Below, in pieces: positions 1 through 16,102 of a stretch of 64,000 nucleotides of DNA (its first letter is position 1; every line of letters starts with the position of its first letter). Under the pieces are notes generated by a model that saw only the letters and a program-made list of their open reading frames with translations, had not been told where the DNA came from and searched no databases. The DNA lies in the NCBI RefSeq assembly GCF_032397745.1, contig NZ_CP135921.1, forward strand, positions 7,924,501-7,988,500. The letters run 5' to 3'. This stretch comes from Bradyrhizobium prioriisuperbiae (GTDB lineage: Bacteria > Pseudomonadota > Alphaproteobacteria > Rhizobiales > Xanthobacteraceae). A program made the translations under genes and the position numbers.

Positions 1-511
1 AGTGGCCGTCCATCGCCTCAAGAGAGGCATTCAGCTGGCCATAGTCCGAACCCATCGAACCGAGATACACTCCCGTCATCGATTCACTGAGTGCATCCGG
101 CCGGAGCCCCGCTCGCTCCAGCGCCTCCCACACTACTTCGAGCACCAGTCGCTGCTGCGGATCCATAGCAATCGCTTCGCGCGGCGAGATTCCGAAAAAG
201 CCCGCGTCGAATTGGTCCACATCCTGCAGAAATCCTCCCTCGCGCGTGTAGCTTTTGCCTGCCGCATCAGGGTCCGGATCAAAGAGTGCGTTGGCATCCC
301 AGCGTTCGGGGAACGGTCCAATAACATCCCGCCCCTCCTTCAAAAGCGCCCAGTAGCTCTCAAGATCAACTACGCCTCCAGGAGCGCGGCACCCCATCGC
401 TAGAATCGCGATAGGCTCTCGCGATGCCGTAGCCTTATCCAGAACTGTGCGCAGCCGCTGAACCTCAAGCAGACTCTTGCGCAAAAGCTCGCTGGCACTC
501 CTACTGGTCAT
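1..511 (-). CDS. Type I polyketide synthase, N-terminus only (runs off left edge)
   Basis: The 170 codons seen encode a start of [12 protein letters not shown], a short helical stretch that could be a docking segment (about residues 5-28), then the beginning of a beta-ketoacyl synthase domain: [14 protein letters not shown], a [10 protein letters not shown] motif and the [10 protein letters not shown] motif, all classic for modular PKS KS domains. The KS active-site cysteine and everything after it lie outside the window. The ATG overlaps the TGA of the upstream NRPS gene (ATGA, 508-511), so the two are translationally coupled. It should extend the acyl-heterocycle delivered by the NRPS ACP by at least one ketide unit. 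Domain content beyond KS cannot be judged here. The family call is secure; the product is not predictable. Confidence 0.93.
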
Positions 512-3500
512 TTGCCTAGGATCCTCTCCGCGAGAGCGAGCAGATCATCTTCCCCGATTTCGCGAATCATTTTGGAAATGCCCGTTGACTCTTCCGTCTC
601 CGGCGGGGCCAAGGCGCGCACGATGGCCGCCACTGAGGGGTAGTCGTACGCCAGCGTCACGGGCAGCGGACGGTTCAGAGCACGCCCGAGCCGATTCCGA
701 AACCGCAACGCCAACAGCGAGTCGGCTCCCAGATCAATGAACCGAGTCTCGATAGGCACTTCTTTGACTTCAAAGGTCTCGGCCGCCACCCGCGACACAA
801 TCTCCGTCAGTTCGATGATCGACTGGGTGGATTTTCCGCCCAGCGGAGCGGCGGGTGTGCTTGCCCTTGCAGGCACATGCCAGGCTTGTTTGCTCAGGAC
901 CGCTCGATCCACCTTGCCATTGGCATTCAGCGGCAATGACTCTCGAATCTGGAATTGCACCGGCACCATGTACGCCGGCAGCACCTTCTCACAGTACGCG
1001 CGCATTGCGTCGCCGTCGGTGACATGTGATGGAGCTGGCAAGGCTTCCGCAAGGAAAGGCCACCCTCGCTGCTTCCCTGACCACTCTGCGACCCCACCGA
1101 CCAGAGCGTGCACGTACAACTCGGTGGGACTCAGATCGAATGCGGCCTCCAGCCCTCGAAAGTTGAACGAGGCTTGGCACAGACCGAGGCCGTGGATTGA
1201 AGCTTCATCCTCGAGGCTCTGACAGAGCCGGCCGGCTTCTAACCGGCACACAAGCTCACTCTGACTGCCGCAGAGCGGAGCTATGCGTTCCATCTGGCCT
1301 ACGACAAGCAGCACGAACGCCGCTGCTTCGAACATTTCCCGGTTGGCGGGCGGGATCCGTTTGGTCTCGAGGGATACGGGCCCACCCACCTGGATGAGAG
1401 CGTGTGCGACGGGATCGTAGCGGTATGTTCCGCTCTCAAGCTCCTCGACCCGGCCAGCCTTCACTGACACGTACAGATGTACCGGATACAGATGGCCTGA
1501 AACAGCTGCACCGTTTCGCGACCCTTCGTGCATCCGGCGCAAGGTACCTAACAGCCCGGCCAAGCTCTCGAGCGGTACCGCACGCGGCAGGTAGGTCCGA
1601 AAGCTGCGACGACTCACCCAGTGCTGTTCTATCTCCTCGTCCGACCGCCAGCGCGGGAGTGCGATCGACGGTGCAGCGATGCGTCGAATGCTTCGATGAT
1701 CCACCTTGAATTGCATGCGCTCCGCTGCGCTCTGTAGCGGCGCAAACTCCAAGAGGTTAGCGCTTGGCTGGGCGCGCTCCGCGGCGGCAAGCACGACGGA
1801 CCAGCCCTCCCCGCAGGGGACTGCCAGCTCGCTCCCGCCCACCAACGCGTGCAAGCAAACATCTCCCGGCGCGAGCCCAAACACTGAGGCGAGACCATCG
1901 AGTTGAAGGCCCACAAGAGAGTGCAATTGCACCCCCTCCTCCGTCGCAGCGCGCTCCAACAGATGACTCATCTCGCCCGCTTCCAACGCGCAGAACGGCT
2001 CGCTCAGCCGGCCGTACGCAGGAGCGATGGCCGCCAAGTGCCCGATCAGCAGCAGAGTGAACGCGGACGACTTCAGCAGATCTTCCTGCTCAGAGACTCG
2101 CCCGGACAGAGGAGACACTCGATTGGAGAGCTGTACCAACGTGTGCTCGATCGGATGGTAGTAGTACACGCCTCCGGTCAGCCCATCGATCCGATCTGGC
2201 GCCACACACACCAGGACTTGCACGGGATACAGGCTTCCTGGCGACGCATAGCGGGCTTTCGGTAGCGGCGAGTAATCGTTCGGCACCCGTCGCAGGGTCT
2301 CCAGCATCCTGGCCAGCGATGTCACATCGATTGCCGCGCCAGTTGCTCGACGCTTCGGGGACGTGCAGGTGGGCGCAGGTTGCCCTTCCGACAACCCCAC
2401 GACGGGTACATTTTGTCGTCGCGCCAGCGGCGTCGAAAGCATCGTCTCGACTAAGGCACGTCGTGCTGCTGAATCTTGCACCAGCGCCAGCTCACGCCAC
2501 CGTGCGCTGCCTGGCTCGGCAAGAAAATCATCCTCCGAAGCGCCCAGTACCACATGCGCCACCAGGCGCTTTTCTCGCTCTCCTACTGCAACCACCACCG
2601 CCTGCTGGACATCGGCATGACGCTCGAGCACCGCTTCGATTTCGCCTAGTTCAACCCGATAGCCATGCACCTTCACCTGTTGATCGCGACGGCCCAGAAA
2701 CTCGATATCTCCGCTAGGTAACCAGCGTCCCCAATCTCCCGTGCGATACAGCCGCTCCCCGGTGCGAGGGTGCAAGATGAAGCGCTGCTGGGTCTGCTCC
2801 TCATCACGCCAATACCCCTGGGCCAGACCAACGCCGCCCACATGGATCTCTCCCGCTACGTAGGTCGGACATGGCTCCAGGCTCGGACTGAGTATCCAAG
2901 CCGTTTGATTGGCCATGGGTTTGCCCCAAGGAATACTTGGCCAGTCCGGCTCTACCCGACCGATGTGATACAAGACTGCATTGATGGATGTCTCAGTGGC
3001 GCCGCCGACGCTGATGACAGTCGAATTGGAAACCTGGGAGCGGAAGGCGTCGGGCAGACTTACGGGTATCCAATCCCCGCTGAGCATGACCTTCTGCACA
3101 CTGCCCATGGCCTCCAGCACCTCGGGACGCTTCTCCGCATGATCCACCAGCAGCCCAAGCAATGCCGGCACCGAGTTCCACACCGTCACACCTTGACGAA
3201 GATACTGCGCCCAGAATGCGGGATCTCTCGCCTCTCCGGCCTCAGGCAACACCACAGCGCCGCCGGCCGCAAACATCCCGAACATGTCGTAGACTGACAG
3301 GTCGAAGGACAAAGACGACAAACCGAATGCGCGGTCCGTCGATCTCACGTCCAGATGGGCATTGATATCGAGCAGGTAGTTTACCGGACCGCGATGGTCG
3401 AGCATGACCCCCTTGGGTTCGCCCGTGGATCCAGACGTGTAGATGATGTAAGCCAGATCAGCAGGTGTTTGAACGAACTCCAGCGCCGGAGCCTCGTTGT

Positions 3501-6500
3501 CAGCGAGCAAATCGCAATCGATCACCAAGCGCTGTACTTCGGCGAGCCCATCCAGCTCCACCCAAGGCTGAATCAAGGCCAGGCTCGCCCCGCTTCGCTC
3601 CAGAAGCGATCGGCGGCGGGCCGGAGGAAGGCCGGCATCTATCGGCAGGTACGCCGCTCCGGAGTACAGAACACCCAACACCGCGGCCACCTGCTCCCAG
3701 CCCTTGTCCATCACAATGGCGACGGGTGTATTGGGCTTCGCACCCAGCTCGCGCAGGCGATGCCCGAGCTGCCGCCCTATCGCGTCCAGCTCTCCATAGG
3801 TAAGCGTGCGCGCCTTGGCGATCACCGCAGGCTGATCGGGTTGAGCAACCGCCTGAGCCGCAAACAACCCGTGTAAGGTCTGCGACGACGCGGGGCCGGT
3901 CGTGTCGTTGGCGGATGCGATGCGCGACTGCTGGTCTTCGGCCAAGAGCGTCGGCCAGCACGTATCCCAGGCCGTCGGCTCTCGCGCCAGCGACGTGATC
4001 CGCGCCGTGTATGCGGCCGTCATCTCCTCGACCATGCCTTCGGGGAACAATCCCTCGATGACATCCCAGCTGTACCGTAGCTCCCCTCGCACCTCCTGGA
4101 TAATGTGATCCAGCCAGACCTGCGGGGTCTGAGTGAGTTCGAAGATTAACTCCCCTAACCATGCATCCGCCGCTTCAACGGCGGAGATTGGCAGTCCCAA
4201 CAGGCTTGTGAACACCACGGGCGCCATCACCTCTCGGCCCGCTCGCCGCCAGGCGCGCAACACATCGACCCCATCCACTGCGCTATGCTCCAGGTGCTGA
4301 TGGAGCTGCCGCTGCAGGGCAGCAGCCCACGTCCGCAACGGTGTCCCCGCCGGCGGTTGGCATTCGAGGAACAGCAGGTTGGTGAAGTCGCCCGCGATAT
4401 CGTAGATATTCTGGTGGATCGGCGGACGCGTGAAGTGCGTCAGGTTCAGGAGGAAGGGCGCCTCATTCGACCAGCGGCTCAGCACTTCTGCAAACGCACT
4501 ACACAACGCCATGGTCGGCGTGATGCCTCGGCCTCGTGCTTCGGCGCCAAATCGCTCCCAGTCTGCCGCGTTCAGGCGGCCATGGTACCGGATGTTACGG
4601 TGGCGCTTCACCCGTTCCTGGGATTTGGCAAGCGGAAATTGCGGGACAGGATCGAAGCTCGGGCAACGCCCCTTCCAATACGCCAAGGCGTTCCGATGCG
4701 TCTCGGTATCGCGCGCCGCGATGCCCGTTCGAACGATCGCCTCGAACCCTCCAGGCATGAGTGCAGGTAGTTTTGCTGCTGGATTCTCGTAAAGACGCTG
4801 CCAATCGTGAAGGACGATCTGTAGACTCGCGCCATCCAGGCACAAAAGGTCGAAGTCCAGGCAGTAGCGAACGCGTCCCTCGGGCAGCAAGAACACGCGA
4901 AACTCGAACAACGGCCACTCTTCAAGCGAGCGAAACGCGCCCGACAATTCTGCCCGCACCTGAGTCAGGCGCCCCTCTCGCGCCTCATCGTCCACGGTAC
5001 GCAGATCCTCGACAGGCAGCAAATAGTCGGGCACCTTCGGAAGCACCCGCTGATGCCCATCCGGGGTGAAGACCATTCGCAACGCCTCATGACGTTGTAT
5101 CACCGCACGCCATGACGCCTCCAATCGCGGCAAGTCGACGAGTGATCCTTCGATCTCGCGGTACCAATGATACGCTACAGCTCCCGCGGAACCGGTTTGC
5201 CGTCCCACCCAGTACGCCTGCTGAATCGGTGAGAGCGGAAAGGGCTTGTAAGCAGATTCTGGGTCCCCGTTGACTTTGGATGCTTCGGGCGGACTTGCGG
5301 CGGCGCAATTTCCTCGCGCTCTCCGTCCAATTGCGACGACGAGGCCGGCGATTGTCGCAGCGTCAAAAAATTCTTCGAGCGTCAGATTGATCCGCAGTGC
5401 CTGACGAAGATCGGTGAGGATTTCGACGGCGCGCAGCGAATTGCCTCCAACGTCGAGGAAGTTTTCCGACACTGATGTCGTTTGCCGCCGGAGCCGCCGA
5501 TTCCAAGCGGCGGCGACGAGGAGCTCCAGAGATGTCGGCACTGCAACGCTCTTGCCTCGCGTTGGTGTCTCGTCGGCGTGCTGCTGCTCGTTCAGCAACT
5601 CCACCATCAGCTGTTCATGCTCTGAGCGCGCCGCTGCCACAAGTTGCTGGAACAGCACATCCTCGGCCGTGGATTGTGATCGTTTCGTTGCTCCTTGCTC
5701 TTCGTGGCCTGACCCGACGGCGCCTTCGAGGTCGTTTATCTCCTCCAACCTCCGTTTCAAAGCGCTCAGGAACCGCATTGCCTCCGCGCCGTTTATGACA
5801 CGGTGGTCGTATGCCAGGCCGACTGTGGTCACACGCCGACGCGTCACGCGTCCGTCATCGCGCAACGCCAGCTCTTCTTCGACAGCCGCCAGCGACACCA
5901 TGCATGTTTGATTTGGTACAACCAATGGAAGCGAGAAGACGATCCCGCTTTCGGGATTCAGCGAGATCGATATGTTGCCGCCGCCGAACTCACTTTCTTC
6001 AAATCCATCAGACATTGCCTTCGTCTTGTACGCCATCAATTTAGCTGCGATGTCGGAGAGCGACATGGACGCGGCGTTCTTGATGACTGGAATGAACAAC
6101 CCATGTCCTGCGTCGAGCGTGACGCCGACGTGAGCTCTCTTCGCCGAAGAAACCCTCTCGCCGTCCACAAAGTTAGCGAGCACCGCCGGCTGCTGTTCAG
6201 CGACTACGGCGACCGAATGGACGATGAGTTCAGTCAGCTCTACCGCGCGCCTGGTTCGCGCGCGAATTGCCGCAAGCGCGTCCAACGCTTGATCGCAGCT
6301 GATTTTGACCGCGAGAAACGCCTGTGGGATCGTTGCGTGCGATGTCGAAACAACCCGTGCCACTGCGGCCTGCCGCTTCGACAACGGTTCGGTTACCGAG
6401 CCTTGGGCAGACGATGATCCTCGACGGCGAAGTAGCTCTTCCACGTCGTTGCGCTTGATCAGCGACCGGCCAAGAGATTCGACCTCCCTCGCATCAAGCC

Positions 6501-6840
6501 CGTTTGCGGCCATCAGCGCTTGCGCATCCCTTGTCACCGTTACGGCATGTTCTCCTCCAGATGAGGCGGTGCGTCGGTTCCCGTCGACTGTTCCTCCAAG
6601 CTCTTCTAAATCTGCATGAACGTACGCAGCCTCTGACCCGACGGGACAAACGCTGTCGACCTGAACTGCATGACGAAGAAAACCATCAGTGGTGGAGACG
6701 AGCTCGAATGCTGCTTTTGACGTCTCCAAGAGAGCGATTACCTCGTCGGCACTCACCCGGGCGCCGTCAGCGACAATCCACTCTTTGAGAACACAACTAT
6801 CGTCGTTGCTCGTGAATTTTGGGATTTGAATCGACTGCAC
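508..6840 (-). CDS. Fused 2-oxoacid dehydrogenase E2 - nonribosomal peptide synthetase (LD-PSBD-E2-PCP-Cy-A[Ox-Ox]-ACP)
   Basis: This 2110-residue protein has: a lipoyl domain at about 1-80 (lipoyl Lys42 in ETSKA); an E1/E3-binding domain at about 100-138; an E2 acyltransferase domain at about 155-370 ending in DHRVING (345-351); a carrier at about 437-505 (Ser468 in GGNSL); a heterocyclising Cy domain at about 535-960 ([10 protein letters not shown]664/D669/S672); and an adenylation domain starting near 985 ([11 protein letters not shown] at 1134). Two SagB/nitroreductase-like oxidase regions (about 1500-1670 and 1740-1915) interrupt the A domain between motif A8 (about 1395) and A10 (NGKVDR, Lys1976). 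A PKS-like ACP follows (Ser2041). A-domain pocket residues D1180, L1181, Y1184 and N1222 begin like a cysteine code. Inference: E1/E2 loads an acyl starter on the first carrier, Cy-A makes the thiazoline, Ox makes the thiazole. Its start lies 44 nt inside the E1-beta gene. No frameshift is seen. Confidence 0.93.
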
Positions 6841-7855
6841 AAGCCGCCTCCCGAACGATGCGGTAGATACCCTCTTTTTGTATCAGTACCTGCCTCTCTA
6901 GATGACGCGCGGCAGGGATAATGCTCGGCTCCGAGCATATGATTCCGATCGGATTCCTCAGCTTGCCCCATAAGGCGCCGTACAACCCCGCGGCCACCTC
7001 GTTTCCCCATCCACCTCCCCGCACGCCCTCTTCGACGGTGAAGATGAACTCCGATGTCGCAACTGCGTTTGCCAAGGGCGCCAAGGCAATCGGATAGAGT
7101 CGCGACGCCACGATGATCTGACATTCCACCTCGACGTCGATGATGAGATCCCGGATCGCGTCAATGCATCGCAGCGCTGCGCCTCCCGTCGTGATAATCG
7201 AGCAGCGCACTTTCCGGAAATCCGCGCAGTAAATCCGCGCGTATATCTGGTCTTTGTCGATGTATTCGAACGAGAAGACATCGTCGACACGACCGTCGCG
7301 AAACATCTTGTTCGTGTAGAGGACCTTGTCCTCAAAAAAAAGACAGGGCCGACCGGCGTTTAGAAGCTTGAAGAACACTTCTCTGTTGTCCACGAAGGGA
7401 GATAATTCGTAGAGATCGAGGTTCGGAATTCCAATGAAGTGTTTCTGCAGAGACTGACTGTGTGTAGGGCCGTAACCACGACCGCCACCAATCGGGACTC
7501 GCACTACACAGTTCAATTCGCAAGGCTCACCGTACATCGTCACAGACTTCGAGAGGAAATTGACGATTTGGTCGTATGCGAGTGTCACGAAATCACCGAA
7601 CATGATCTCGACGATCGGCTTCTGTCCCATCAGCGATAGTCCAGCGGCGAAGCCGACGATGGCCGCCTCGCTTATTGGGGTCGTTAGCACGCGGTCACCG
7701 AACCTCGTTGACAATCCCCGAGATACGCCGAACGCACCGCCATACGGATCGAGAACATCTTCTCCAATGAACGACACACGCTCATCGTGTGCGAGAACCT
7801 CGTGCAACGCGCGATTGAGATTTTCTGAGACGCGCTCAGGTTGCAGTGCGTTCAT
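6797..7855 (-). CDS. 2-oxoacid dehydrogenase E1 component, beta subunit
   Basis: This is the beta subunit of a thiamine-diphosphate-dependent 2-oxoacid dehydrogenase (pyruvate/acetoin/branched-chain type), about 352 residues, a normal length. Visible family features are an N-terminal NLNRALHEVLAHDERVSF segment, FIGEDVLDPYGGAFGVSRGL, the TPISEAAIVGFAAGLSLMG stretch and GGGRGYGPTHSQSLQ. With the alpha subunit it would decarboxylate a 2-oxoacid and reductively acylate the lipoyl group on the E2-NRPS encoded next. I place the start at the ATG that overlaps the E1-alpha TGA (7852-7855), because GGAAGGGG sits 8 nt upstream; a GTG at 7873 is in frame but less likely. Substrate (pyruvate versus branched 2-oxoacid) cannot be read from the sequence. 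Confidence 0.92.
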   Translation of the reverse strand: MNALQPERVSENLNRALHEVLAHDERVSFIGEDVLDPYGGAFGVSRGLSTRFGDRVLTTPISEAAIVGFAAGLSLMGQKPIVEIMFGDFVTLAYDQIVNFLSKSVTMYGEPCELNCVVRVPIGGGRGYGPTHSQSLQKHFIGIPNLDLYELSPFVDNREVFFKLLNAGRPCLFFEDKVLYTNKMFRDGRVDDVFSFEYIDKDQIYARIYCADFRKVRCSIITTGGAALRCIDAIRDLIIDVEVECQIIVASRLYPIALAPLANAVATSEFIFTVEEGVRGGGWGNEVAAGLYGALWGKLRNPIGIICSEPSIIPAARHLERQVLIQKEGIYRIVREAACAVDSNPKIHEQRR

Positions 7856-8766
7856 GCGCAAAGCCCCTTCCACGTACTTGGCGGCCGATCGAGCACACGT
7901 CGAGCGAGGGTCGTGATCTCATCGTCGACACGAGCTCGTATCGCGGCATACTGCTCGGGAAACTTCACTTCGTAACATGTGAGGACGTCGCGTTGTCGGG
8001 CCCGCGCAATCTCGTCGGCCGTACGCGTATCGTCCCCTTTGCTATGTGGGCCGAGACGCATGGTCTCGAACGTGATGACGACTGGGCTTCGCTGCGTTCG
8101 CGAGAGCAAAAACGAAGGCGAGAGAAGCCTGCGGATCTCAGTTATGTCGGTGCTTGTAACTTCTTCGTATTCTATGCCGAATGCTCGGACGCGGGCTTCG
8201 ATATTACCCGCCATCTGCAGCGCTGTTGGTGTCGATTGGGCAATGCCATTGTTCTCAACGATCAGCGCCAAAGGAAGTTGCCAAAGAGCAGCTAAATTCA
8301 ATACCTCGTATACAATTCCTTGGCCCCAAGTACCGTCACCTACATACGCGATCGCCAGTTCATTAGAGCCAAATCGTTTGAAATGGCCCGCAACACCTGC
8401 AGCAATCCCAAGACCTTCACCTTGAATACCCGTCGACAGATAAGACCCACGCCGATAGATGTGCTGACTGCCCCCGACGCCATGACAGATGGCGCCCTGC
8501 CGTCCCGTTATTTCCGCTAGCAGGCCCTCAGCGTCGTCGAACCTCGCAATGTAGTGCCCGTGCCCTCGGTGATTGCTGAATACAAAATCACCAGGCTCGA
8601 TCAAAGTGCGCAAAGCCACCGGGATGTACTCTTGCCCGAGGCAGGTATGCGTCGTTCCACTCAACTGACCTTGAGAGAAGAGTTCTAGTAAGCAGGTCTC
8701 GAAGAGTCTAATGCGGAGGAGACACTCAAGATCCTCGTCGCTCAGCTTTCCAAGACGACTCGACAT
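7852..8766 (-). CDS. 2-oxoacid dehydrogenase E1 component, alpha subunit
   Basis: This is the alpha subunit of a ThDP-dependent 2-oxoacid dehydrogenase. From the MSSRLGKLSDEDL start it is 304 residues. The ThDP/magnesium motif is clear: GDGTWGQG followed after about 20 residues by ENNG. Other family blocks are FSQGQLSGTTHTCLGQE, SNHRGHGHYIA and HGVGGSQHI. An in-frame upstream start (8862) would add 32 unusual residues and overlap an inverted repeat that looks like an operator, so the internal ATG with GAGGTG upstream is preferred. It is the first gene of the E1-alpha, E1-beta, E2-NRPS, PKS operon. No dedicated E3 (lipoamide dehydrogenase) is in the window; a housekeeping E3 would have to reoxidise the lipoyl arm. 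Confidence 0.92.
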   Translation of the reverse strand: MSSRLGKLSDEDLECLLRIRLFETCLLELFSQGQLSGTTHTCLGQEYIPVALRTLIEPGDFVFSNHRGHGHYIARFDDAEGLLAEITGRQGAICHGVGGSQHIYRRGSYLSTGIQGEGLGIAAGVAGHFKRFGSNELAIAYVGDGTWGQGIVYEVLNLAALWQLPLALIVENNGIAQSTPTALQMAGNIEARVRAFGIEYEEVTSTDITEIRRLLSPSFLLSRTQRSPVVITFETMRLGPHSKGDDTRTADEIARARQRDVLTCYEVKFPEQYAAIRARVDDEITTLARRVLDRPPSTWKGLCA

Positions 8767-8841
8767 CTTAAACGACACCTCGGTCGGAGCAACGAGAAGT
8801 GTGACCGGAGCTAGGCGGCTACCGTCAACACACTTAATAGT

Positions 8842-8866
8842 ACAGTTGTGAATAGGACACAATTGT
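8842..8866. promoter_or_regulatory. Operator-like inverted repeat upstream of the E1/E2-NRPS operon
   Basis: The arms ACAGTTGTG (8842-8850) and CACAATTGT (8858-8866) are inverted with a 7-nt spacer and one mismatch. The site lies about 76 nt upstream of the chosen E1-alpha start, where a repressor or activator of the operon could bind. No regulator gene is adjacent within the window. A near-perfect TTCAATTG direct duplication follows around 8956-8974. Confidence 0.35.
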
Positions 8867-9577
8867 GACGAGTATTGCTAGTCGTCGATTTATTTGATCG
8901 GCGGCAGCGCCCAGTCACTAGTGTGTTCGCAAGACGACCGACTTAGGACGGTTCTTCAATTGTCTTCAATTGCTTTCGTGAATCAGCACATTGTGAGCAA
9001 CGCGATGGCCAGTGCAGCGAGAACACCTCATGCATCTACTCTCGCACAGCAGGCACTTGTCCAAGGTCAGCCGCGTGTTGGTCAACCAATCCACCCGCCT
9101 TGGAAATACTGGTAGCGTTGAAAACGGAATGCCCTTCTCGGTGATGTTGTCCCGCGGAATGCAGGGGGGGCTCTACGATTACTGAGAATGTCAACTGGCA
9201 CCATTTTTTGAATTATACTTGGATCTCCGAGCCAATCGCGCGGGCCAGGCCTCGTTTAAAAGAGCTCTTTGGGCGCCATTGGCGGGATTGTTGACGCGCT
9301 ATACGAAGCTCGATCTTTGGGCCGAGCTGGCGAGCGACCTCACCCGCTTTTGAACTCAGAAGAGTTTTCAGAGAAACCTCATGAGTTCGGGCAGCACAGC
9401 GCTCTGGCGCTCCCTTGGGCAGGCTAAATTCCATATCGTCCGTTACGCGAACAAAAAAGACTTGCGGAGGAGCCGCGCTTACTCTTGTTTCAAATAACCA
9501 GACGACGCCGAAGGTAGCCGTTTCTGACACCTGAGGGCGATCATCGGATCCAAAAGCGATCAGAGGAGCAGGAGTGA
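8867..9577. other. Non-coding, AT-richer stretch with no supported gene
   Basis: About 0.7 kb upstream of the biosynthetic operon. Short open frames occur on both strands, including a 158-codon minus-strand frame at 9213-9689, but none shows a recognisable domain, and that one runs antisense to the better-looking frame starting at 9578. The stretch should hold the operon promoter. It is probably partly remnant DNA. Confidence 0.5.
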
Positions 9578-10000
9578 ATGGATACTGACGGCACTCAGGA
9601 AATTCTGGCGCGGTACCAAAAGATGCGCAAAGCGCTCGTTGGTGCATCCGCGGTGCTCGAAAATAATGCCGATCAACGTCGGTCGGCATTTACTATCTCC
9701 CTTGGGGGCGTCCATGACTTTCTGATCGCGTTTCCTGGGCTGAATGACCCAAAGCCCTTATTCGCCTTTCGTAAATTGATGAGTGCTCTCTGGGATCTTG
9801 ACCAGGGCACCACGGTCCCGCTTTTGCGAGCAAACGTCATCGGCCGCCGCATTCGATTGCCAAACAGGGATTTTTTGTATTGGCGGGAGCCGTGATGGAA
9901 TTACTGCGGAAGGGTCAGGTCAAACGCTCAGAGGCGGCATACCGGGTCACTATCGTCACCACACATCGCGCTTGTCATGGCGCTTCAACAATGAGTTTTT
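9578..10000 (+). pseudogene. Frameshifted remnant of an unknown protein resembling a family seen in rhizobial genomic islands
   Basis: The first frame (9578-9895, AGGAG upstream) encodes 105 residues beginning MDTDGTQEILARYQKMRKAL and containing FRKLMSALWDLDQGTTVPLL. It then breaks, and the continuation VMELLRKGQVKRSEAAYRV appears in another frame from about 9890 before decaying near the thioesterase start. The order (an N-terminal helix, an 'ALWDLDQG..VPLL' block, then an 'AAMELL..GQ.KREAA..V' block) matches my memory of small uncharacterised proteins common in rhizobial genomic islands, often near integrases. The function is unknown, and the family recall cannot be checked here. It suggests the surrounding DNA has been mobile. 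Confidence 0.45.
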
Positions 10001-10012
10001 GGGGTCCTCGTC

Positions 10013-10759
10013 ATGGAAACTCCCTGGATTTTTCGGCTAGCACCTCGCCCGGATTCCAAGCTCCGATTAATTTGCTTTCCGCATGCAGGCCGCGGACCTT
10101 CGATGTTTAATTCTTGGGCGCGGGAACTCCCAGACGCCATCGAGGTGTGCGCCGTACACCTTCCCGGACGCGAGAGCCGCATCCGAGAGCCAAGCCTCAA
10201 AGCGATGTCTGACCTCGTCGAGAAACTCGTTGATGGTCTCGACAGCGCGATCGGTGGCCCCTATGCGATTTTTGGACATAGCGTTGGAGCCTTAATGGCT
10301 TTTGAGTTCACACGCGAGCTTCGGCGACGGGAAAAGCCGCTGCCTGTACATCTGTTTGTCTCCGGACGTCGGGCGCCGCAGTGCCCGCCAGGCCCTGCCA
10401 CTCACCAGCTGAACGATCAAGATTTTTTGGCCGACGTTACCAGCCGATACGGAGAGATGCCTGGCTCAGTCCTTGCTGATCCGGAAATTCTCGCCGTCTT
10501 CTTGGACATTGTCCGCTCTGATGTGCGCGTAATGGACACGTATAAATACAAGGAGGAGCCCGCCTTCCCCGTGCCGATTTCCGCATACGGCGGCAGCCTC
10601 GATCAAATGCTTACCCGTCCGATGCTCGAAGCATGGCAGACACATACCAATTTGACGTTCCGGCTGCGCATGTTTGACGACGGACACTTTTTCCCAGATC
10701 TACTGCGCGCCCAGCTTCTTCGCGCCGTCATCGACGATCTTGGACTCCTGACCTCATAA
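10013..10759 (+). CDS. Type II thioesterase (external editing thioesterase of NRPS/PKS)
   Basis: A 248-residue alpha/beta hydrolase of the GrsT/RifR type II thioesterase family. It has LRLICFPHAGRGPSMF at the N-terminus, the nucleophile elbow GHSVGA (Ser near residue 90), a catalytic Asp in SAYGGSLDQM and a catalytic His in DDGHFFPD. Length and all three catalytic elements are intact. Such enzymes free stalled or mis-primed carrier proteins in assembly lines. It lies divergent from the E1/E2-NRPS/PKS operon and is presumably part of the same pathway. A second, broken copy of the family lies at 12760-13425 on the other strand. The start codon precedes TPWIFRLAPRPDS; the adjacent upstream sequence is debris. 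Confidence 0.92.
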   Translation: METPWIFRLAPRPDSKLRLICFPHAGRGPSMFNSWARELPDAIEVCAVHLPGRESRIREPSLKAMSDLVEKLVDGLDSAIGGPYAIFGHSVGALMAFEFTRELRRREKPLPVHLFVSGRRAPQCPPGPATHQLNDQDFLADVTSRYGEMPGSVLADPEILAVFLDIVRSDVRVMDTYKYKEEPAFPVPISAYGGSLDQMLTRPMLEAWQTHTNLTFRLRMFDDGHFFPDLLRAQLLRAVIDDLGLLTS

Positions 10760-11066
10760 CCGACAATTGTTTCGCACTCTGTCTGACGGAAATGGCATCT
10801 CAAGGAAATGGCCCAACGTTCGTGGGTCGCTCAATCATCAAAGCCACTCCCGATCGCAGTTCGTCCGGCAAATGGAACAGGCGTTCGCCAGACCGTCAGA
10901 TTCCTTGGCTGAATTTCCATACGATTTCGACTGCTGCGCGACTATTGAGCATCGCGAAAGTTAATGGAATTCTATTCTTCTAAACAGCGGTGCGGCAACA
11001 CGAAGCTACTAAGCTCACGCCGAGATCGAAAAACTTTCTAGTTGATGTCCAGAGCCGTCCGCCGGG
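10760..11066. other. Intergenic stretch, nothing recognised
   Basis: About 300 nt between the convergent thioesterase and MATE genes. Only short, featureless open frames are present. I see no hairpin followed by a T-run and no repeat. Confidence 0.5.
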
Positions 11067-12488
11067 TTACGGCCGCGCATGAACGCTGCTTTGGCCGGAA
11101 TCTGACCCCCGCTGGCACATCTCGGGGCGGGCATCGCGGCCAAGCCGCGCCAGCACGCCGGGGAATCTTGCCGCGAGCCGCACCACTGCAAAGACGAACG
11201 CGAGCGCAATGCCGATCCAGATTCCGCTGCCGCCAAATCCAAGGCCGAACGCGAACAGCACGGCGCCGCCGAGCCCGACGCCCCAGTAGCCGAGCATGAC
11301 GCGCCATAGCACGGAGTTGGCGTCGCGGAGCCCGCGCAGGATGCTGCCCATGACGATAACGAGTCCCGACAACAACTGGACCGCCGCGCAGAAGCGGAAG
11401 AAGCCGCGCGCGGTTTCGATCACGGCCTCGCTGCCCGACGACCGTGACCACAGCAAGAGACGGACCAGGGTGTCAGAGCACGTGACCAGTACGACGCCGA
11501 CCGCAATCGATGCGGCACTGCCGGCAATGAGCGCCACTGTTATGGCGTGCCTGATGGCGCCGACATCGCGCTGACCGAGCAGCAGCGAGATCCGCGCCAT
11601 GGCGGCCTGCGAAATCCCGATCGGGATCATCAAACAGATGTTGAGCCACAACACGACGATGCCATGGGCACCGAGTGCGACCTTGCCGAAATAGCCCATC
11701 AGCATGGTTGAGGCTGTGAACATCGATGCTTCGGACAAGAAGATAGCGCCAACCGGAATGCCGATTCCAAGCACCTCGCGCACGGCAAGCCCGGCGCGGC
11801 GATCGCGCAGGCCTTTCGGAATGCGCGGCGCATGCCACATCGCGATGGCGAGCAAGCCGAACATCAGCCAGTTGGTCAGCGCAATAGTCAGACCGATCGC
11901 CATCAAGCCGTCGATGGCCGAGGCGCCGCCGGCAAGCAACAGATTGCAAGCGAAGTTGAAGGCCGTGCCCGCGATGATGATAGGGTTGAGCCATTTGAGA
12001 TCGTTCGCCGCGATTAGGAAGAATCTCAGCGCGACCACGATGATGCCCGGCAAATAGCCGGGCAGCAGTCCCCAAATGAAACGCTGCGCGAGCACGACCA
12101 GCGCCGGGTCCTGACCGGTGCGCGCGAGACACCATGGCACTCCCGCCATGATCGCGGTCGCGCCGAGGCCCATCATGACGGCGAGGAAAAGACCGCCGCG
12201 GATGGCGCGCGTGGCCGCCGCATCGTCACCGGCTCCGATGCCCATGCTGACGAGCGGGACCAGGCCTTGCAGCACGCCAAGGGCGGTGATGAACAACAAC
12301 AGCCCGATGCTGCCGACAAGGCTGCCAGCGGCCAGCGCGTCGACGCCAAGCCGTCCGGTCATGCTCGTTGTCACGAACGGGATCGCGAGCTGCAGCAGCT
12401 GGTTGAATGCGAGCGTCAAGCCCGAACGACCGAGGTGACGGGCTTCCTGCCGCCACAAGGCGTCGCGTGGTGCAGAGGGGACTTGCAT
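11067..12488 (-). CDS. MATE-family multidrug/metabolite efflux transporter (NorM type)
   Basis: A 473-residue polytopic membrane protein with the two-bundle MATE layout. Early FNQLLQLAIPFVTTSMTGRL and DALAAGSLVGS blocks recur in the second half as GIPVGAIFLSEASMF and VALGAHGIVV, giving roughly 12 membrane segments. MATE proteins are Na+- or H+-driven antiporters that export drugs or small metabolites across the inner membrane. It lies downstream of, and convergent with, the thioesterase. It could export the product of the E2-NRPS/PKS pathway, but it also borders the debris zone and may simply be chromosomal. The C-terminal 25 residues are hydrophilic and poorly conserved-looking. Confidence 0.88.
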   Translation of the reverse strand: MQVPSAPRDALWRQEARHLGRSGLTLAFNQLLQLAIPFVTTSMTGRLGVDALAAGSLVGSIGLLLFITALGVLQGLVPLVSMGIGAGDDAAATRAIRGGLFLAVMMGLGATAIMAGVPWCLARTGQDPALVVLAQRFIWGLLPGYLPGIIVVALRFFLIAANDLKWLNPIIIAGTAFNFACNLLLAGGASAIDGLMAIGLTIALTNWLMFGLLAIAMWHAPRIPKGLRDRRAGLAVREVLGIGIPVGAIFLSEASMFTASTMLMGYFGKVALGAHGIVVLWLNICLMIPIGISQAAMARISLLLGQRDVGAIRHAITVALIAGSAASIAVGVVLVTCSDTLVRLLLWSRSSGSEAVIETARGFFRFCAAVQLLSGLVIVMGSILRGLRDANSVLWRVMLGYWGVGLGGAVLFAFGLGFGGSGIWIGIALAFVFAVVRLAARFPGVLARLGRDARPEMCQRGSDSGQSSVHARP

Positions 12489-12540
12489 GATAGGCGCCCG
12501 TTATAGCGGACCGACCGGAAGACACAGCTCGCAATGGAGT

Positions 12541-12680
12541 TGCCCCCCCACGGCGCGCAGGCCCGCGCCGCCGGCGCCGACCACGACGACGTCGTAGGTG
12601 TGGTCTTCGATCGGATAGGCCTTGCCGTTGGTGGCGGGGCCATTGGATTTGATCGAGTTGCCGGTACCGTCAGCGGCCAT
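12541..12680 (-). pseudogene. sdhA: 5' fragment of sdhA (succinate dehydrogenase flavoprotein subunit)
   Basis: From the ATG at 12680 the minus strand encodes MAADGTGNSIKSNG, then KAYPIEDHTYDVVVVGAGG and AGLRAV. This is the N-terminus of alphaproteobacterial, especially bradyrhizobial, SdhA, including the FAD-binding GxGxxG loop. Homology stops abruptly after about 47 codons, exactly where SdhA would continue into its conserved cysteine/serine-rich segment, and the frame then runs to an unrelated stop. It is too short to function. It most likely marks a recombination or duplication break. An intact sdhA is expected elsewhere on the chromosome. Confidence 0.82.
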
Positions 12681-12759
12681 GGATCACACTCCCGACAACA
12701 ATCGAACATTGAGAGGGCCGCCAAAATTGGAGGTTGCATGAACCTATATCCTCAATCCT

Positions 12760-13425
12760 TCGCCAATGGTAGCCCGCGAGCCGTGAGCCAGTGCGATAAG
12801 TTCCTCTGACCGGGCGTGCGGGAAGAAATGGTCCCCGGAACCACCATGGAAATCGAACGTTCGAAGCGCGTAGTCACTCCAAAGCGCCACCGCCTCGGGC
12901 GGCGCCGCACTGTCCCGTTGGGCTGCGACCGCCGCGAGGGGAATACTGACCCCGCGTGGCCGTCCGCGGTCTGCCAGTTCTCGGCGATGCTGAGGTCGGC
13001 CTGTATCAGCGGCAGGATGGCATCCAGCACTTCCTCATTTTCGAGGACCCGATCGGCCAGTCCCCCCAATGTCTTCAACCGGTCGATGAGTTCGGATCGT
13101 GACAGAAGATGCCACGGCGATATTCTTCCGCTGCTGGGCGGGCGTGCCCCGCAAAGCACCAGCCTGGTGGGAACCCCGCCTTTGATTGATTCCAGACGTT
13201 GAGCCAAGCTGAAGGCCACCAGTGCGCCCAATGATCGAATAAGGCGCAGCCTCCAGCCACCCCCGCAGGTCGCGTGCCAGTCCGCCCGCCAAATCCTCGA
13301 TGGACGTTGCCAGCGGCTCGTCATGCCGAATGCCGCGACCCGGATATTCGATCGAACAGATCACCAGACCCGGACCGTTAAAGCGACGGTCGTACCGCTG
13401 ACGCTCTGTCACATTGCTAGTCTCA
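12760..13425 (-). pseudogene. Broken type II thioesterase (at least two frameshifts)
   Basis: Three frames must be stitched. The N-terminal part (from about 13425) gives LVICSIEYPGRGIRHDEPLA and GWLEAAPYSIIG. A shift at the nucleophile elbow then leads into SLGALVAFSLAQRLES, RLVLCGARPPSSGR and SRSELIDRLKTLGGLADRVL. A second shift near 12860 restores FDFHGGSGDHFFPHARSEEL, which contains the catalytic-histidine motif. Together these cover most of a GrsT-type thioesterase, ending near 12760. It is a decayed paralogue of the intact gene at 10013-10759, a hint that a larger or older assembly-line cluster once extended here. Confidence 0.8.
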
Positions 13426-13469
13426 GCGCGATCAACCAACTGGCGTTGGTGGCCGGTTCTGTCAGACGC

Positions 13470-13740
13470 CGTAAGGGTCCAACCGCCGCGCCCCGATTGC
13501 CCTTGGGAAAGTACTTCGCCAGGAATTCGTCGAAGCGGCGGATACCGGAATCGTCATTCCATTGGGCATCGGCGGCATCCCTCAGATAAGCAGCAGAAAC
13601 GATGCCCTGGCCGTTCTCCAGACCGGCCGGCTCCATTACCCACCACCGGCGCTTAAGGTCTTCACGACGCGAGAAATCCCGCGACAGTCGGCAATGCCGG
13701 TGTGTCCAATCATTCCGCCTGCCCTGCTCAAGTTGGCTGT
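13470..13740 (-). pseudogene. Fragment of a branched-chain amino-acid-type ABC substrate-binding protein
   Basis: The minus strand reads MEPAGLENGQGIVSAAYLRD then AADAQWNDDSGIRRF and FLAKYFPKGN. This closely follows the 'PAGLENAQGIISAAYLKDPTDPQWKDD' block I recall from LivK-type (Peripla_BP_6) proteins of bradyrhizobia. Upstream residues are only weakly alignable, and the downstream part passes into unrelated sequence just before the broken thioesterase. It is a non-functional piece of about 90 codons. Its exact ends are uncertain. Confidence 0.6.
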
Positions 13741-13780
13741 TGCAAGATTTTTCCCGATCTCCCGGTGCACACGCCGCCCT

Positions 13781-14113
13781 CTAATTCATTGAAAATTTGA
13801 ACTTTCTGTCCAATCCATCAGCCAAGACGTCGGGTTGCTCTCTGCCGAGGTCGACCAAGTTTGACGCCACGCTACTCCCAAAGACTCGCCCCTCATCTTG
13901 TCCCTCGGGCAAGGTTACAGAAAAAATCAATAGAGATTTCAGAACATTATACGAACTGTTCGAATCTCTCCGAGTGCGCCAGTCGAGCGGTTTCGTGCAG
14001 CCATTCTCAACGCATTGCATTGCGCCAACCGCCAGATCGCTCGTTCTCAAAACGCGGACATCAGGCGACGATGCCCCGTCCATCGCGGGCATCACGAAAC
14101 GATGATCCTGCAA
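13781..14113 (-). other. Open frame with weak receiver-domain resemblance; otherwise unexplained stretch 13741-14204
   Basis: A 110-codon minus-strand frame contains VMPAMDG and, about 20 residues later, DLAVGAMQCVENGCTKPLDW. The order and spacing loosely recall a FixJ-type response-regulator receiver (the MPxMxG loop followed by a 'VxAMxAGAxxFLTKPF' block). The rest is unrecognisable and no HTH is seen. It could be a decayed regulator or a chance frame. Base composition is AT-richer than the cytochrome gene that follows. No other feature was found in 13741-14204. Confidence 0.25.
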
Positions 14114-14204
14114 TTTAAAGCGTTTGGTGCGACCGCCGCGACAATCTTGAACCGGAACGCACAGCCTCTATCTGCATTCCATACCAGCACGTCGGAGGTG
14201 TCCC

Positions 14205-14735
14205 ATGCGTATCCTTGCGGCTATCGGTGCATTGGCAATCGCGATCGGCCTTGCCGCCGCGGCATTCTTCTTCGGCGGGTTTTATAGCATTGCAGGCACC
14301 ACGGAAGATCCCGCTGTTGTCACCTGGGCGCTGACGCGCGTGCGCACGGCGTCCATCAATCGCCACGCGACCGCAACAGCGCCCGCCTCCTTCAATGACC
14401 CCGCCACGGTGCAGTCCGGCGCTCGGGCTTACGCAACGTTCGGCTGCGCGACCTGCCACGGAGCGCCCGGCGTCAAATGGCAGAAATTCTCCGAAGGCCT
14501 GCATCCTGATCCGCCGGACCTGAAGGAGGTCGCCGGCGAGCTCTCCCCTGCCCAGTTATTCTGGGTCATCAAGAACGGCATCAACATGACGGGCATGCCG
14601 AGTTTCGAGCAGGCCGGCGCCACGGACACCGAGATCTGGTCGATCGCGGCGTTTGTCAAAAAGCTGCCGGTCGTTTCCGATGCCGACTACAAGACCTGGA
14701 CCGCGTCCCTCGATCCGGCCTCGCCCGCGAAATAG
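14205..14735 (+). CDS. Membrane-anchored or secreted class I c-type cytochrome
   Basis: A 176-residue protein with one N-terminal hydrophobic segment (about residues 3-23, signal anchor or signal peptide). It has a single haem-attachment motif CATCH (Cys81, Cys84, His85) and a likely axial methionine in MTGMPSF (Met131). The C-terminal helix region is AAFVKKLPVVSDADY. It would act in the periplasm as a small electron carrier; the partner is unknown. GGAGGTG lies just before the ATG. It is the first gene of normal chromosomal character right of the debris zone, convergent with the membrane protein downstream. Confidence 0.9.
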   Translation: MRILAAIGALAIAIGLAAAAFFFGGFYSIAGTTEDPAVVTWALTRVRTASINRHATATAPASFNDPATVQSGARAYATFGCATCHGAPGVKWQKFSEGLHPDPPDLKEVAGELSPAQLFWVIKNGINMTGMPSFEQAGATDTEIWSIAAFVKKLPVVSDADYKTWTASLDPASPAK

Positions 14736-14761
14736 TAGATTTGATCTCGGCAGGCGCTGGT

Positions 14762-16102
14762 TCAAGTCTCCAGGGAGTCGCCGCTGCGCCAACCCGACGC
14801 GGCGACAAAGGCACCGGCGATGCCGGCGATCACCGCCCAATAGCCATAACGAAAGTCGGGCGCCACACCGACGAAAAGGAAGCTCAGGATGTAAATCGTC
14901 GCGGACCCGCACAATCCAAGTGCGAAGACGCCTTCGCGCGTGTCACGTCGTCGCCAGCCCACACCGCAGACGACGAGACACAGCAACAACCACGCGCCGA
15001 GACGAAACAAGGGTGTCGGTTTCAACCAATCATGCACCGAGACCAGAGCGTTGAACGCCGCCCGATCAGGGAAAACCGTCTGATTAGGACGTTCGATATC
15101 AGCGAGCCACATCGTCAGATTGCCGGCGGTGAGGAAATTCCAGAAGTATGCAGACCGATGTTCGAGATAGGCGACCGGATGCCGCCCGATCGCGCGCAGC
15201 CACGCGTTGGAGATCGCGGACGTTCCGAACAGGCCTTCTTCCCGCTCGATCTTTCGCATCACAAAATCGCAGGGAGCCAGCCGCCAATAGACGTCCCACT
15301 GGCTGGCGTCATAGCAGGTGTTGAGCAACTGGGTGTTTTCCGACGCACTCCATGTGACCGGATACTGGTTCTCCTTGGCAAAGTGGCTGATGCCGCCGAG
15401 ATCGAAGATCATGATCGATTGCAATGGATGCTGCCGCGTTGCTCCCAGCACGCCATAATAGACCAGTTGTACCGTGGCGAAGAGGCCGATCGCCGCCGGC
15501 ACGAAGAGGATGGCCGTCCGGCGCAGCGACATCCGCTGTGGCCAGATCACATAGGCGATGAGGATCGGCGCAGCGAGCAGCGCATTCGGCCGCAGCAGCA
15601 CGCCCAGGACAACCAGCGCAAACGCCAGCCATTGCGCCGGTCGCCGAGCCGACGACGGCCTCCCACATACCGCACACACGATGCTGGCAGCGAGCAACCA
15701 GCAGCCGGCCAGCAGCACGTCCCGCCAGATGATCCCGACGAAGACCAGTGCGGGCGGCAGCAGAGCCAGAATCGGCAGCACCAACGCGCTGCGCTTGCCG
15801 CGGCTCGCCTCGACAACCGACAGGACCCCAAAGCCAAGCCAGTACAATGCGGCCGCCAGAAGAAAAATGCTGGCTGCACCGGGGGCGATCGGATCGATCA
15901 CACCCCACAGCCACGTCATGACCGGCGACTGCCAATCGCCATACGTGCCCTTGGCGATGTCCTCGTAGACGTATTTGGCATCGAAGGTCATGATGCCGGG
16001 GTAGAAGATCAGCAGGGTCAGGCCGTAGCCCGCGGCGACAAGCGCACCAACGGCCCCGACCAGACGCCATTGCGATTCCGGCCGGTCAGTCCGTGACGGC
16101 AT
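14762..16102 (-). CDS. Polytopic membrane protein, possible GT-C-type glycosyltransferase or cell-surface polysaccharide protein
   Basis: A 446-residue protein with about 10 hydrophobic segments and a large non-membrane stretch between roughly residues 230 and 350. An early DAKYVYEDIAKGTYGDWQSP loop after the first membrane segment, with acidic residues, resembles the first extracytoplasmic loop of GT-C enzymes, but I do not recognise a specific family. It overlaps the FkbM methyltransferase gene by 17 nt and follows opgH on the same strand, so it is probably co-transcribed and involved in modifying or building the same envelope glycan. The function is inferred from context only. Confidence 0.7.
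   Translation of the reverse strand: MPSRTDRPESQWRLVGAVGALVAAGYGLTLLIFYPGIMTFDAKYVYEDIAKGTYGDWQSPVMTWLWGVIDPIAPGAASIFLLAAALYWLGFGVLSVVEASRGKRSALVLPILALLPPALVFVGIIWRDVLLAGCWLLAASIVCAVCGRPSSARRPAQWLAFALVVLGVLLRPNALLAAPILIAYVIWPQRMSLRRTAILFVPAAIGLFATVQLVYYGVLGATRQHPLQSIMIFDLGGISHFAKENQYPVTWSASENTQLLNTCYDASQWDVYWRLAPCDFVMRKIEREEGLFGTSAISNAWLRAIGRHPVAYLEHRSAYFWNFLTAGNLTMWLADIERPNQTVFPDRAAFNALVSVHDWLKPTPLFRLGAWLLLCLVVCGVGWRRRDTREGVFALGLCGSATIYILSFLFVGVAPDFRYGYWAVIAGIAGAFVAASGWRSGDSLET

Follow-up and report, generated by a model that had tools for sequence, protein, structure and literature searches.

A candidate built-in loading domain at the head of an assembly line in Bradyrhizobium prioriisuperbiae: a 2-oxo acid dehydrogenase acyltransferase fused to a heterocyclising module

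How might an assembly line of nonribosomal peptide synthetase (NRPS) and polyketide synthase (PKS) modules be primed when its first protein opens with the lipoyl and acyltransferase (E2) domains of a 2-oxo acid dehydrogenase? The question is raised by a 64,000-nucleotide stretch of the genome of Bradyrhizobium prioriisuperbiae (positions 7924501-7988500 of contig NZ_CP135921.1; hereafter the window), the whole genome being a single 9.08-Mb contig. On the minus strand of the window, an open reading frame (ORF) at 508..6840 encodes one uninterrupted chain of 2,110 amino acids that carries, in order, a lipoyl domain, a divergent subunit-binding region, an E2 domain, a carrier, a heterocyclisation (Cy) domain, an adenylation (A) domain with an inserted oxidase (Ox), and a second carrier. 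An assembly artefact is unlikely because the genome is one contig and the frame contains no stop. The E2 part of this hybrid protein may act in cis as a loading module, most likely for a glycolyl unit.

Genes for the two subunits of a dehydrogenase (E1) component lie immediately upstream of the hybrid gene on the same strand. The thiamine diphosphate-dependent E1alpha subunit is encoded at 7852..8766 (likely ATG start at 8766, within an ORF extending to 8862) and matches the Pfam family E1_dh (1.3e-42); the E1beta subunit is encoded at 6797..7855 (likely ATG start at 7855, within an ORF extending to 7873) and matches Transket_pyr (5.8e-22) and Transketolase_C (3e-8). The E1alpha and E1beta genes are joined by an ATGA overlap, the E1beta and hybrid genes overlap by 44 nucleotides, and the hybrid gene meets the PKS gene that follows it at a second ATGA. 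An earlier note, made from the letters of the window, had described this coupled series from the E1 subunits through the lipoyl-E2-carrier-Cy-A(Ox)-carrier chain to the PKS, and Pfam, motifs, and junctions all bear it out.

The lipoyl domain (6673..6828; Biotin_lipoyl at residues 5-56, 7.7e-5) contains Lys42 (codon 6715-6717) within an ETSKA motif, and this lysine is invariant in 34 of 34 aligned E2 sequences, the hybrid among them. The E2 catalytic domain (5728..6399; 2-oxoacid_dh at residues 148-371, 1.8e-39) contains His346 (codon 5803-5805) within DHRVING, in which the DHR and the NG are invariant across the same alignment, including the asparagine that replaces a more usual aspartate. The pattern DHRxxNG occurs in the E2 ORF of 83 of the 83 related loci surveyed below, 80 of which were recruited by two scan patterns that included this motif. 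None of the scores set for PDH (pyruvate dehydrogenase) E2 equivalogs was reached, as the NCBIfam E2 models fall far under their cut-offs (for example, TIGR01349 at 105 versus 445 bits). For the stretch between the two domains (6424..6549, limits approximate), the E1/E3-binding domain named in the earlier note survives in part. A profile of the 34 sequences, hybrid included, aligns it to the subunit-binding domain of PDH E2 (structure 7b9k), whereas Pfam returned no E3_binding (PF02817) match at E<=5 in the hybrid E2 and two relatives and the 49-residue stretch alone gave no match in the Protein Data Bank (PDB) at E<=10; on sequence, it is at most a divergent binding domain.

The carrier fused to E2 (5317..5553, limits approximate) is one of two PP-binding stretches that Pfam finds in the chain, and its GGNS motif, at residue 465, contains Ser468 (codon 5437-5439). 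A six-frame search of window positions 4001-16000 gave no separate carrier, the sole significant match being the fused carrier itself. A mixed carrier model, in whose seed this carrier was present, gives it 37 bits. By such profile scores it resembles an NRPS carrier and is not the acyl carrier protein (ACP) of the E1/E2 family relocated beside E2, which is consistent with its fusion to an NRPS module.

The module that follows is a candidate thiazole-forming unit with parts similar to those of bacillamide. The Cy domain (3901..5241, end approximate; Condensation at residues 534-872, 2.1e-27) retains its motif, DLLCLDGAS fitting DxxxxDxxS, and is followed by the adenylation core (2533..3864; AMP-binding at 993-1344, 1.3e-77, with a partial AMP-binding_C at 1400-1436). 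The closest solved structures to the Cy-A portion are 6lta (1.2e-176) and bacillamide BmdB (5.6e-175), and the Cy domains of EpoB and Irp2 were also matched. By eye, the Ox region (991..2403, limits approximate) consists of two similar halves; the first is covered by its closest solved structure, BmdC (2.7e-18), and the second by the Pfam family Nitroreductase (1743-1905, 1.4e-13). Because the end of the A domain (AYMVPVQF...NGKVDR) comes after the Ox region, the oxidase is inserted inside A, as the earlier note wrote. The second carrier (610..807), with the motif GADSL, is the better of the two PP-binding stretches (residues 2012-2077). The specificity code of the A domain was read by hand as D L Y N M S V I N, on a presumed position numbering, and equals the D L Y N L S L I W read likewise from BmdB at six of nine positions; cysteine is the likeliest, though not a certain, substrate.

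These parts suggest the following route. E1alpha and E1beta, with thiamine diphosphate, would take a C2 unit to the lipoyl group on Lys42, and the fused E2 would pass the acyl from the dihydrolipoyl group to the pantetheine on Ser468 in place of coenzyme A (CoA), the lipoyl group being re-oxidised by the ordinary E3 component of the genome. The Cy domain would then condense and cyclise the acyl unit with cysteine supplied by A, Ox would take the product to a thiazole, and a 2-substituted thiazole-4-carbonyl unit would pass to the PKS. The C2 unit would most likely be glycolyl from a ketose phosphate, which would give a 2-(hydroxymethyl)thiazole starter. We regard this reading as a whole, from the cis-acting E2 loading module to the PKS hand-over, as evenly balanced between right and wrong. 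Loading of Ser468 in cis is the best reading because of the E2-carrier fusion, the coupling to the E1 genes, the intact motifs, and the behaviour of Plu2796, a comparable Photorhabdus protein described below, and also because there is no other loading domain before Cy. The proposal in the earlier note, that E2 loads the fused carrier and so replaces a loading domain, is thus most plausible with E2 standing in for an A or acyltransferase (AT) domain and feeding Cy-A(Ox); the transfer itself we infer. Housekeeping genes would supply E3 and lipoate: the genome contains an E3-like frame beside its PDH genes (a 333-residue piece scoring 385 bits, just under the cut-off of 409), lipA, and four matches to the phosphopantetheinyl transferase (PPTase) family.

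The identity of the C2 unit is judged in part from the kinship of the E1/E2 trio. E1alpha was compared with 198 relatives (119 of its 120 best matches, the record P0107 being excluded, and 79 from the surveyed loci), with the genome's own PDH E1alpha as the outgroup. The motifs GTTHTCLGQE, SNHRGHG, and LGPHSKGDD are common to the 198 relatives and absent from the genome's PDH E1alpha; within them, Thr70, Thr71, Cys74, Ser96-Asn97-His98, Gly271-Pro272, Lys275-Gly276, and Asp278 each occur in at least 96% of the relatives and are kept in the hybrid-locus E1alpha and not in the PDH protein. E1beta, compared with 81 relatives, gives the same pattern, with family residues distinct from PDH. Such residue comparisons show grouping, not substrate, and shared residues are in part a product of construction, the relatives having been chosen by similarity and set against a single PDH outgroup. 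Median identity to the surveyed loci is 56% for E1alpha (n=79), 51% for E1beta (n=81), and 36% for E2 (n=83), slightly under the medians within the family (64%, 59%, and 40%, from 15 sampled members each), and identity to the genome's own PDH is 31% for E1alpha and 29% for E1beta. The trio is a member of a biosynthetic family whose genes are arranged like those for SclQ2-4 from the scleric acid pathway. That it is related to the SclQ, Qnc, and Nap proteins themselves is something we infer from the layout, from one surveyed locus (L091), and from the tables of the papers.

Glycolyl is somewhat likelier than acetyl, by analogy, because the trio groups with a family to which a ketose-derived glycolyl unit has been assigned. 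A hydroxylated C2 unit is favoured by the Scl/Qnc-like grouping together with E1alpha residue 70, which corresponds to a residue lining the acyl pocket in PDH structures and which is threonine here and phenylalanine in the genome's own PDH. The acetyl from pyruvate named in the earlier note is accordingly not the best guess. In its fullest form, our proposal is of an NRPS-PKS line primed by a built-in E2, in which a glycolyl unit from a sugar phosphate reaches the heterocyclising module without leaving the polypeptide and becomes a 2-(hydroxymethyl)thiazole without any starter adenylation, AT, or CoA step; we hold this version tentatively, a little short of an even balance.

Several points weigh against the glycolyl proposal. 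The glycolyl transfer itself is said, in papers that cite the work, to have been shown by Peng 2012. Of the E1alpha positions conserved at 85% or more in the family, 10 differ here, including residue 181, where 175 of 198 relatives have glutamate and the glutamine found here is also that of the genome's own PDH. E1beta and E2 depart at a further 7 and 6 family-conserved positions, respectively; Q181, G150, and G152 are among the exceptions to the family residues. The last residue of the A code is atypical, being asparagine where BmdB has tryptophan. The model of the family's stand-alone ACP gives the fused carrier only 2.0 bits, and since that carrier is of the NRPS type, E2 must accept a carrier of another type. 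Deletion of sclQ1-4 leaves residual product (PMC6335953). The Plu2796 system, moreover, uses 2-oxo acids.

The rival that best survives these points keeps the same cis-acting E2 and lets E1 decarboxylate pyruvate, so that an acetyl starter would give 2-methylthiazole as in epothilone. In its favour are Gln181, which stands in place of the family glutamate, and the 2-oxo acids of the pepteridine pathway of Plu2796, whose output responds to pyruvate and ketobutyrate (PMC5384830); the nearest named NCBIfam models for E1 are also those of PDH E1, although far under their cut-off (171 versus 394 bits). The family grouping and the residues unlike PDH speak against it, as does the presence in the genome of a separate PDH with E1, E2, and E3-like genes, and we consider acetyl unlikely, if the most serious of the alternatives. 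It is improbable that the lipoyl-E2 part has become a relic, or that CoA is its acceptor, with the fused carrier loaded elsewhere or the pathway decaying. This would fit the degenerate binding domain, a carrier unlike the family ACP, and damage at the distal end of the line, where the last PKS protein stops shortly after its ACP and is followed by a condensation-domain fragment with an in-frame TGA, which also counts against the glycolyl proposal. However, no catalytic motif has been lost, the 6.3-kb frame contains no stop, coupling between the genes is tight, and an E1alpha 95% identical to this one occurs in a separate metagenome-derived record, P0107, labelled as a Bradyrhizobium metagenome-assembled genome. 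A longer or branched 2-oxo acid yielding a 2-alkylthiazole is very improbable, since the family's described unit is C2 (PMC6335953) and among PDB entries E1alpha scores highest with human PDH (117 bits), and nothing was found in favour of the branched unit of the earlier note beyond the priming of carriers by branched acids proposed elsewhere (Craig and Brady 2011 and Brachmann 2012, per PMC5384830) and PDB scores in which bacterial PDH E1alpha (1w85 and 3dva, 53-54 bits) does no better than human branched-chain 2-oxo acid dehydrogenase (BCKDH, 57 bits).

The glycolyl proposal places the trio in a family that could be surveyed by gene content. The 83 loci comprise the best 80 of 152 relatives (from 193 pattern matches, one genome per species) and three plasmid loci. 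E1alpha, E1beta, and E2 occur together in 80 of them, and in 48 the stretch examined includes an NRPS A-domain ORF of 600 residues or more. E2 is fused to NRPS domains in none of the 83: its ORF ends no more than 38 residues past the motif in 82 loci and 99 residues past it in the remaining one (L057). A carrier-like stretch on the same strand within 2.5 kb was found in 62 of 83 loci by a loose threshold (independent E-value <0.05) and in 21 by a stricter ACP model, and one locus (L014) carries an annotated ACP. Locus L091 has the gene order reported for DinU/T/S of the dnacin pathway: E1alpha, then a carrier stretch, then a single ORF for E1beta and E2. Other arrangements were also seen. E1alpha and E1beta are fused in a single 671-residue ORF in L060, and two Gastranaerophilales bins (L085 and L087), an unexpected host, have the order E2/carrier/E1alpha/E1beta with 28-29% E2 identity.

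The fusion itself appears to be rare. A protein search with the E2 part scored the 7,999 candidates that had most words in common with it and returned 102 proteins at E<=1e-3, with a best identity of 45%. A search for the whole fusion, using words from residues 1-430 and scoring the 7,997 candidates of about 1,160-3,690 residues that shared the most words, answered the suggestion that other lipoyl-E2-PCP-Cy proteins (PCP, peptidyl carrier protein) be sought: no second E2-carrier-Cy-A protein was among those scored, sizes of about 665-1,160 residues, such as those of Plu2796-like proteins, lying outside both protein searches. Four proteins were returned, namely, the hybrid itself, a fish record, and P0003 and P0004 (source jgi). 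The last two resemble the hybrid as assembly-line proteins that open with a lipoyl-E2 part joined directly to a carrier; they differ in being lipoyl-E2-ACP-PKS proteins of another E2 lineage (26% identity over about one third of the query) and are apparently an independent E2-carrier fusion. The E2-PCP-Cy query matched 524 plasmid records and 4 phage records, none covering 80% of it. Among related genomes, 1 of 60 matched at 1e-40, and in the phylum 1 of 398 matched at 1e-35, with up to three candidates scored per genome; in both cases, this was the source genome itself. In the phylum of Streptomyces xylophagus (G451, the genome of locus L067), 4 of 396 genomes matched at 1e-25 with unfused frames of 402-465 residues. 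Around a second genome (G221), a search for homologues of Plu2796 matched 54 of 392 genomes at 1e-18 with up to two candidates per genome, none spanning E2 and PCP-Cy; when 12 chosen genomes were rescored with E2 and PCP, all 12 matched and no match with both parts was among those listed. A 916-residue candidate homologue of Plu2796 proved by eye to be an A-carrier-thioesterase protein. In titles and starts of abstracts of the open-licence PMC literature, no E2-PCP-Cy-A-Ox fusion was among the matches listed, and the exact fusion can only provisionally be called new to the literature.

The rest of the assembly line lies mostly to the left of the window. The next gene, whose start occupies 1..511 on the minus strand and which continues to contig position 7911014, encodes a protein of 4,665 residues with ketosynthase (KS), AT, dehydratase (DH), ketoreductase (KR), and ACP domains twice in that order, followed by condensation (C), A, and PCP domains. 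Further left are a 2,892-residue protein of KS-AT-DH-KR-ACP and C-A-PCP composition and then the 1,775-residue PKS protein, in which DH-KR-ACP was found by Pfam on the last 967 residues and KS and AT were found from motifs. Contig positions 7896180-7897400 hold the condensation fragment with the in-frame TGA, followed by an ORF that matches zinc dehydrogenases weakly; the distal end of the line may be broken or rearranged, and this arrangement suggests the loss of its end. About 22 kb further, the same strand encodes a 2,588-residue NRPS (two C domains, two A domains, two carriers, one thioesterase), and the region around 7864.6 kb of the contig contains a match to the PPTase family; both are only possible members of the pathway. 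Within the 4,665-residue gene, contig positions 7914449-7917076 and 7919711-7922338 are 99.9% identical over 2,628 bp, the mark of a recent duplication or gene conversion. The dehydratase of the first module (protein L013:3014-17011, minus strand, residue ~949) reads YDYRVGE where other copies read YDHRVGE, and this tyrosine for histidine may leave the first DH inactive.

On the other side of the E1 genes, the window contains a 158-residue ORF without a Pfam match (9213-9689, minus strand), then a divergently oriented type II-like thioesterase (10013..10759, plus strand; Thioesterase, 4.4e-40) and a MATE-family exporter (11067..12488, minus strand; MatE, 8.3e-31), the latter two being putative members of the cluster. 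A second large NRPS region, with open frames of 5,515, 2,680, and 3,284 residues, lies at contig positions 7484000-7516000.

If the proposed route is correct, the acyltransferase of a 2-oxo acid dehydrogenase would be a portable, CoA-independent cis loading domain for modular lines, and the compact E2-PCP didomain could serve to test, and to engineer, the passage of acyl groups from a lipoyl group to a carrier. The family grouping also cautions against taking E1/E2 genes in such clusters to be acetyl loaders by default.

Loading of this kind has precedents in a few other pathways, and the exact fusion was not found elsewhere in the searched data. The module downstream of the fused carrier resembles bacillamide BmdB/BmdC and epothilone EpoB in combining Cy-A with a thiazoline oxidase. 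In epothilone, the starter is supplied by a PKS loading module and not by E1/E2. The SclQ1-4 proteins of scleric acid are assigned, by homology to QncN/L/M of quinocarcin, to placing a ketose-derived glycolyl unit on an ACP, and after deletion of sclQ1-4 glycolic acid restores a similar level of production (PMC6335953). Both systems share with the hybrid locus the set of E1alpha, E1beta, lipoyl-E2, and carrier, with similar lengths (305, 338, and 386 residues); the Scl layout is ACP/E1alpha/E1beta/E2, and the ACP there is a separate protein, whereas the carrier here is within the E2 chain. In the dnacin pathway, DinS and DinU are homologues of NapD and NapB of naphthyridinomycin, DinU/T/S corresponding to NapB/C/D (PMC7570522), and, by analogy with QncL, DinS (754 residues) and NapD are read as E1beta-E2 fusions. 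These proteins likewise supply a C2 unit to an NRPS from E1alpha, carrier, E1beta, and E2 parts; they differ in that E2 is not fused to the carrier and the unit joins a growing chain. Rif15, by comparison, is a two-subunit transketolase (PMC6002545).

The nearest described fusion is Plu2796 of the pepteridine locus of Photorhabdus (plu2792-plu2799), in which an E2-like part is fused to thiolation (T) and C domains (PMC5384830, which cites Craig and Brady 2011, Brachmann 2012, and Peng 2012). Pepteridines A and B are lost upon deletion of Plu2796 or its S434A substitution and are raised by pyruvate and ketobutyrate, pepteridine A incorporates 13C from labelled ketobutyrate, and priming of the T domain in place of CoA has been proposed (PMC5384830). 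An E2-carrier-condensation protein had thus been published, so that the remark of the earlier note, whose author knew of no described natural E2-PCP-Cy fusion, holds only for the Cy-A-Ox type, the C domain of Plu2796 being atypical. Compared by description, the two proteins share a PDH-E2-like part fused to a carrier and a condensation domain, an E1-like partner, and the lack of an E3 of their own, and Ser434 there and Ser468 here are both proposed to be primed instead of CoA. They part at the next step: the atypical C domain of Plu2796 acylates a free pteridine, whereas the hybrid of B. prioriisuperbiae continues into Cy-A(Ox)-PCP and a modular NRPS-PKS line.

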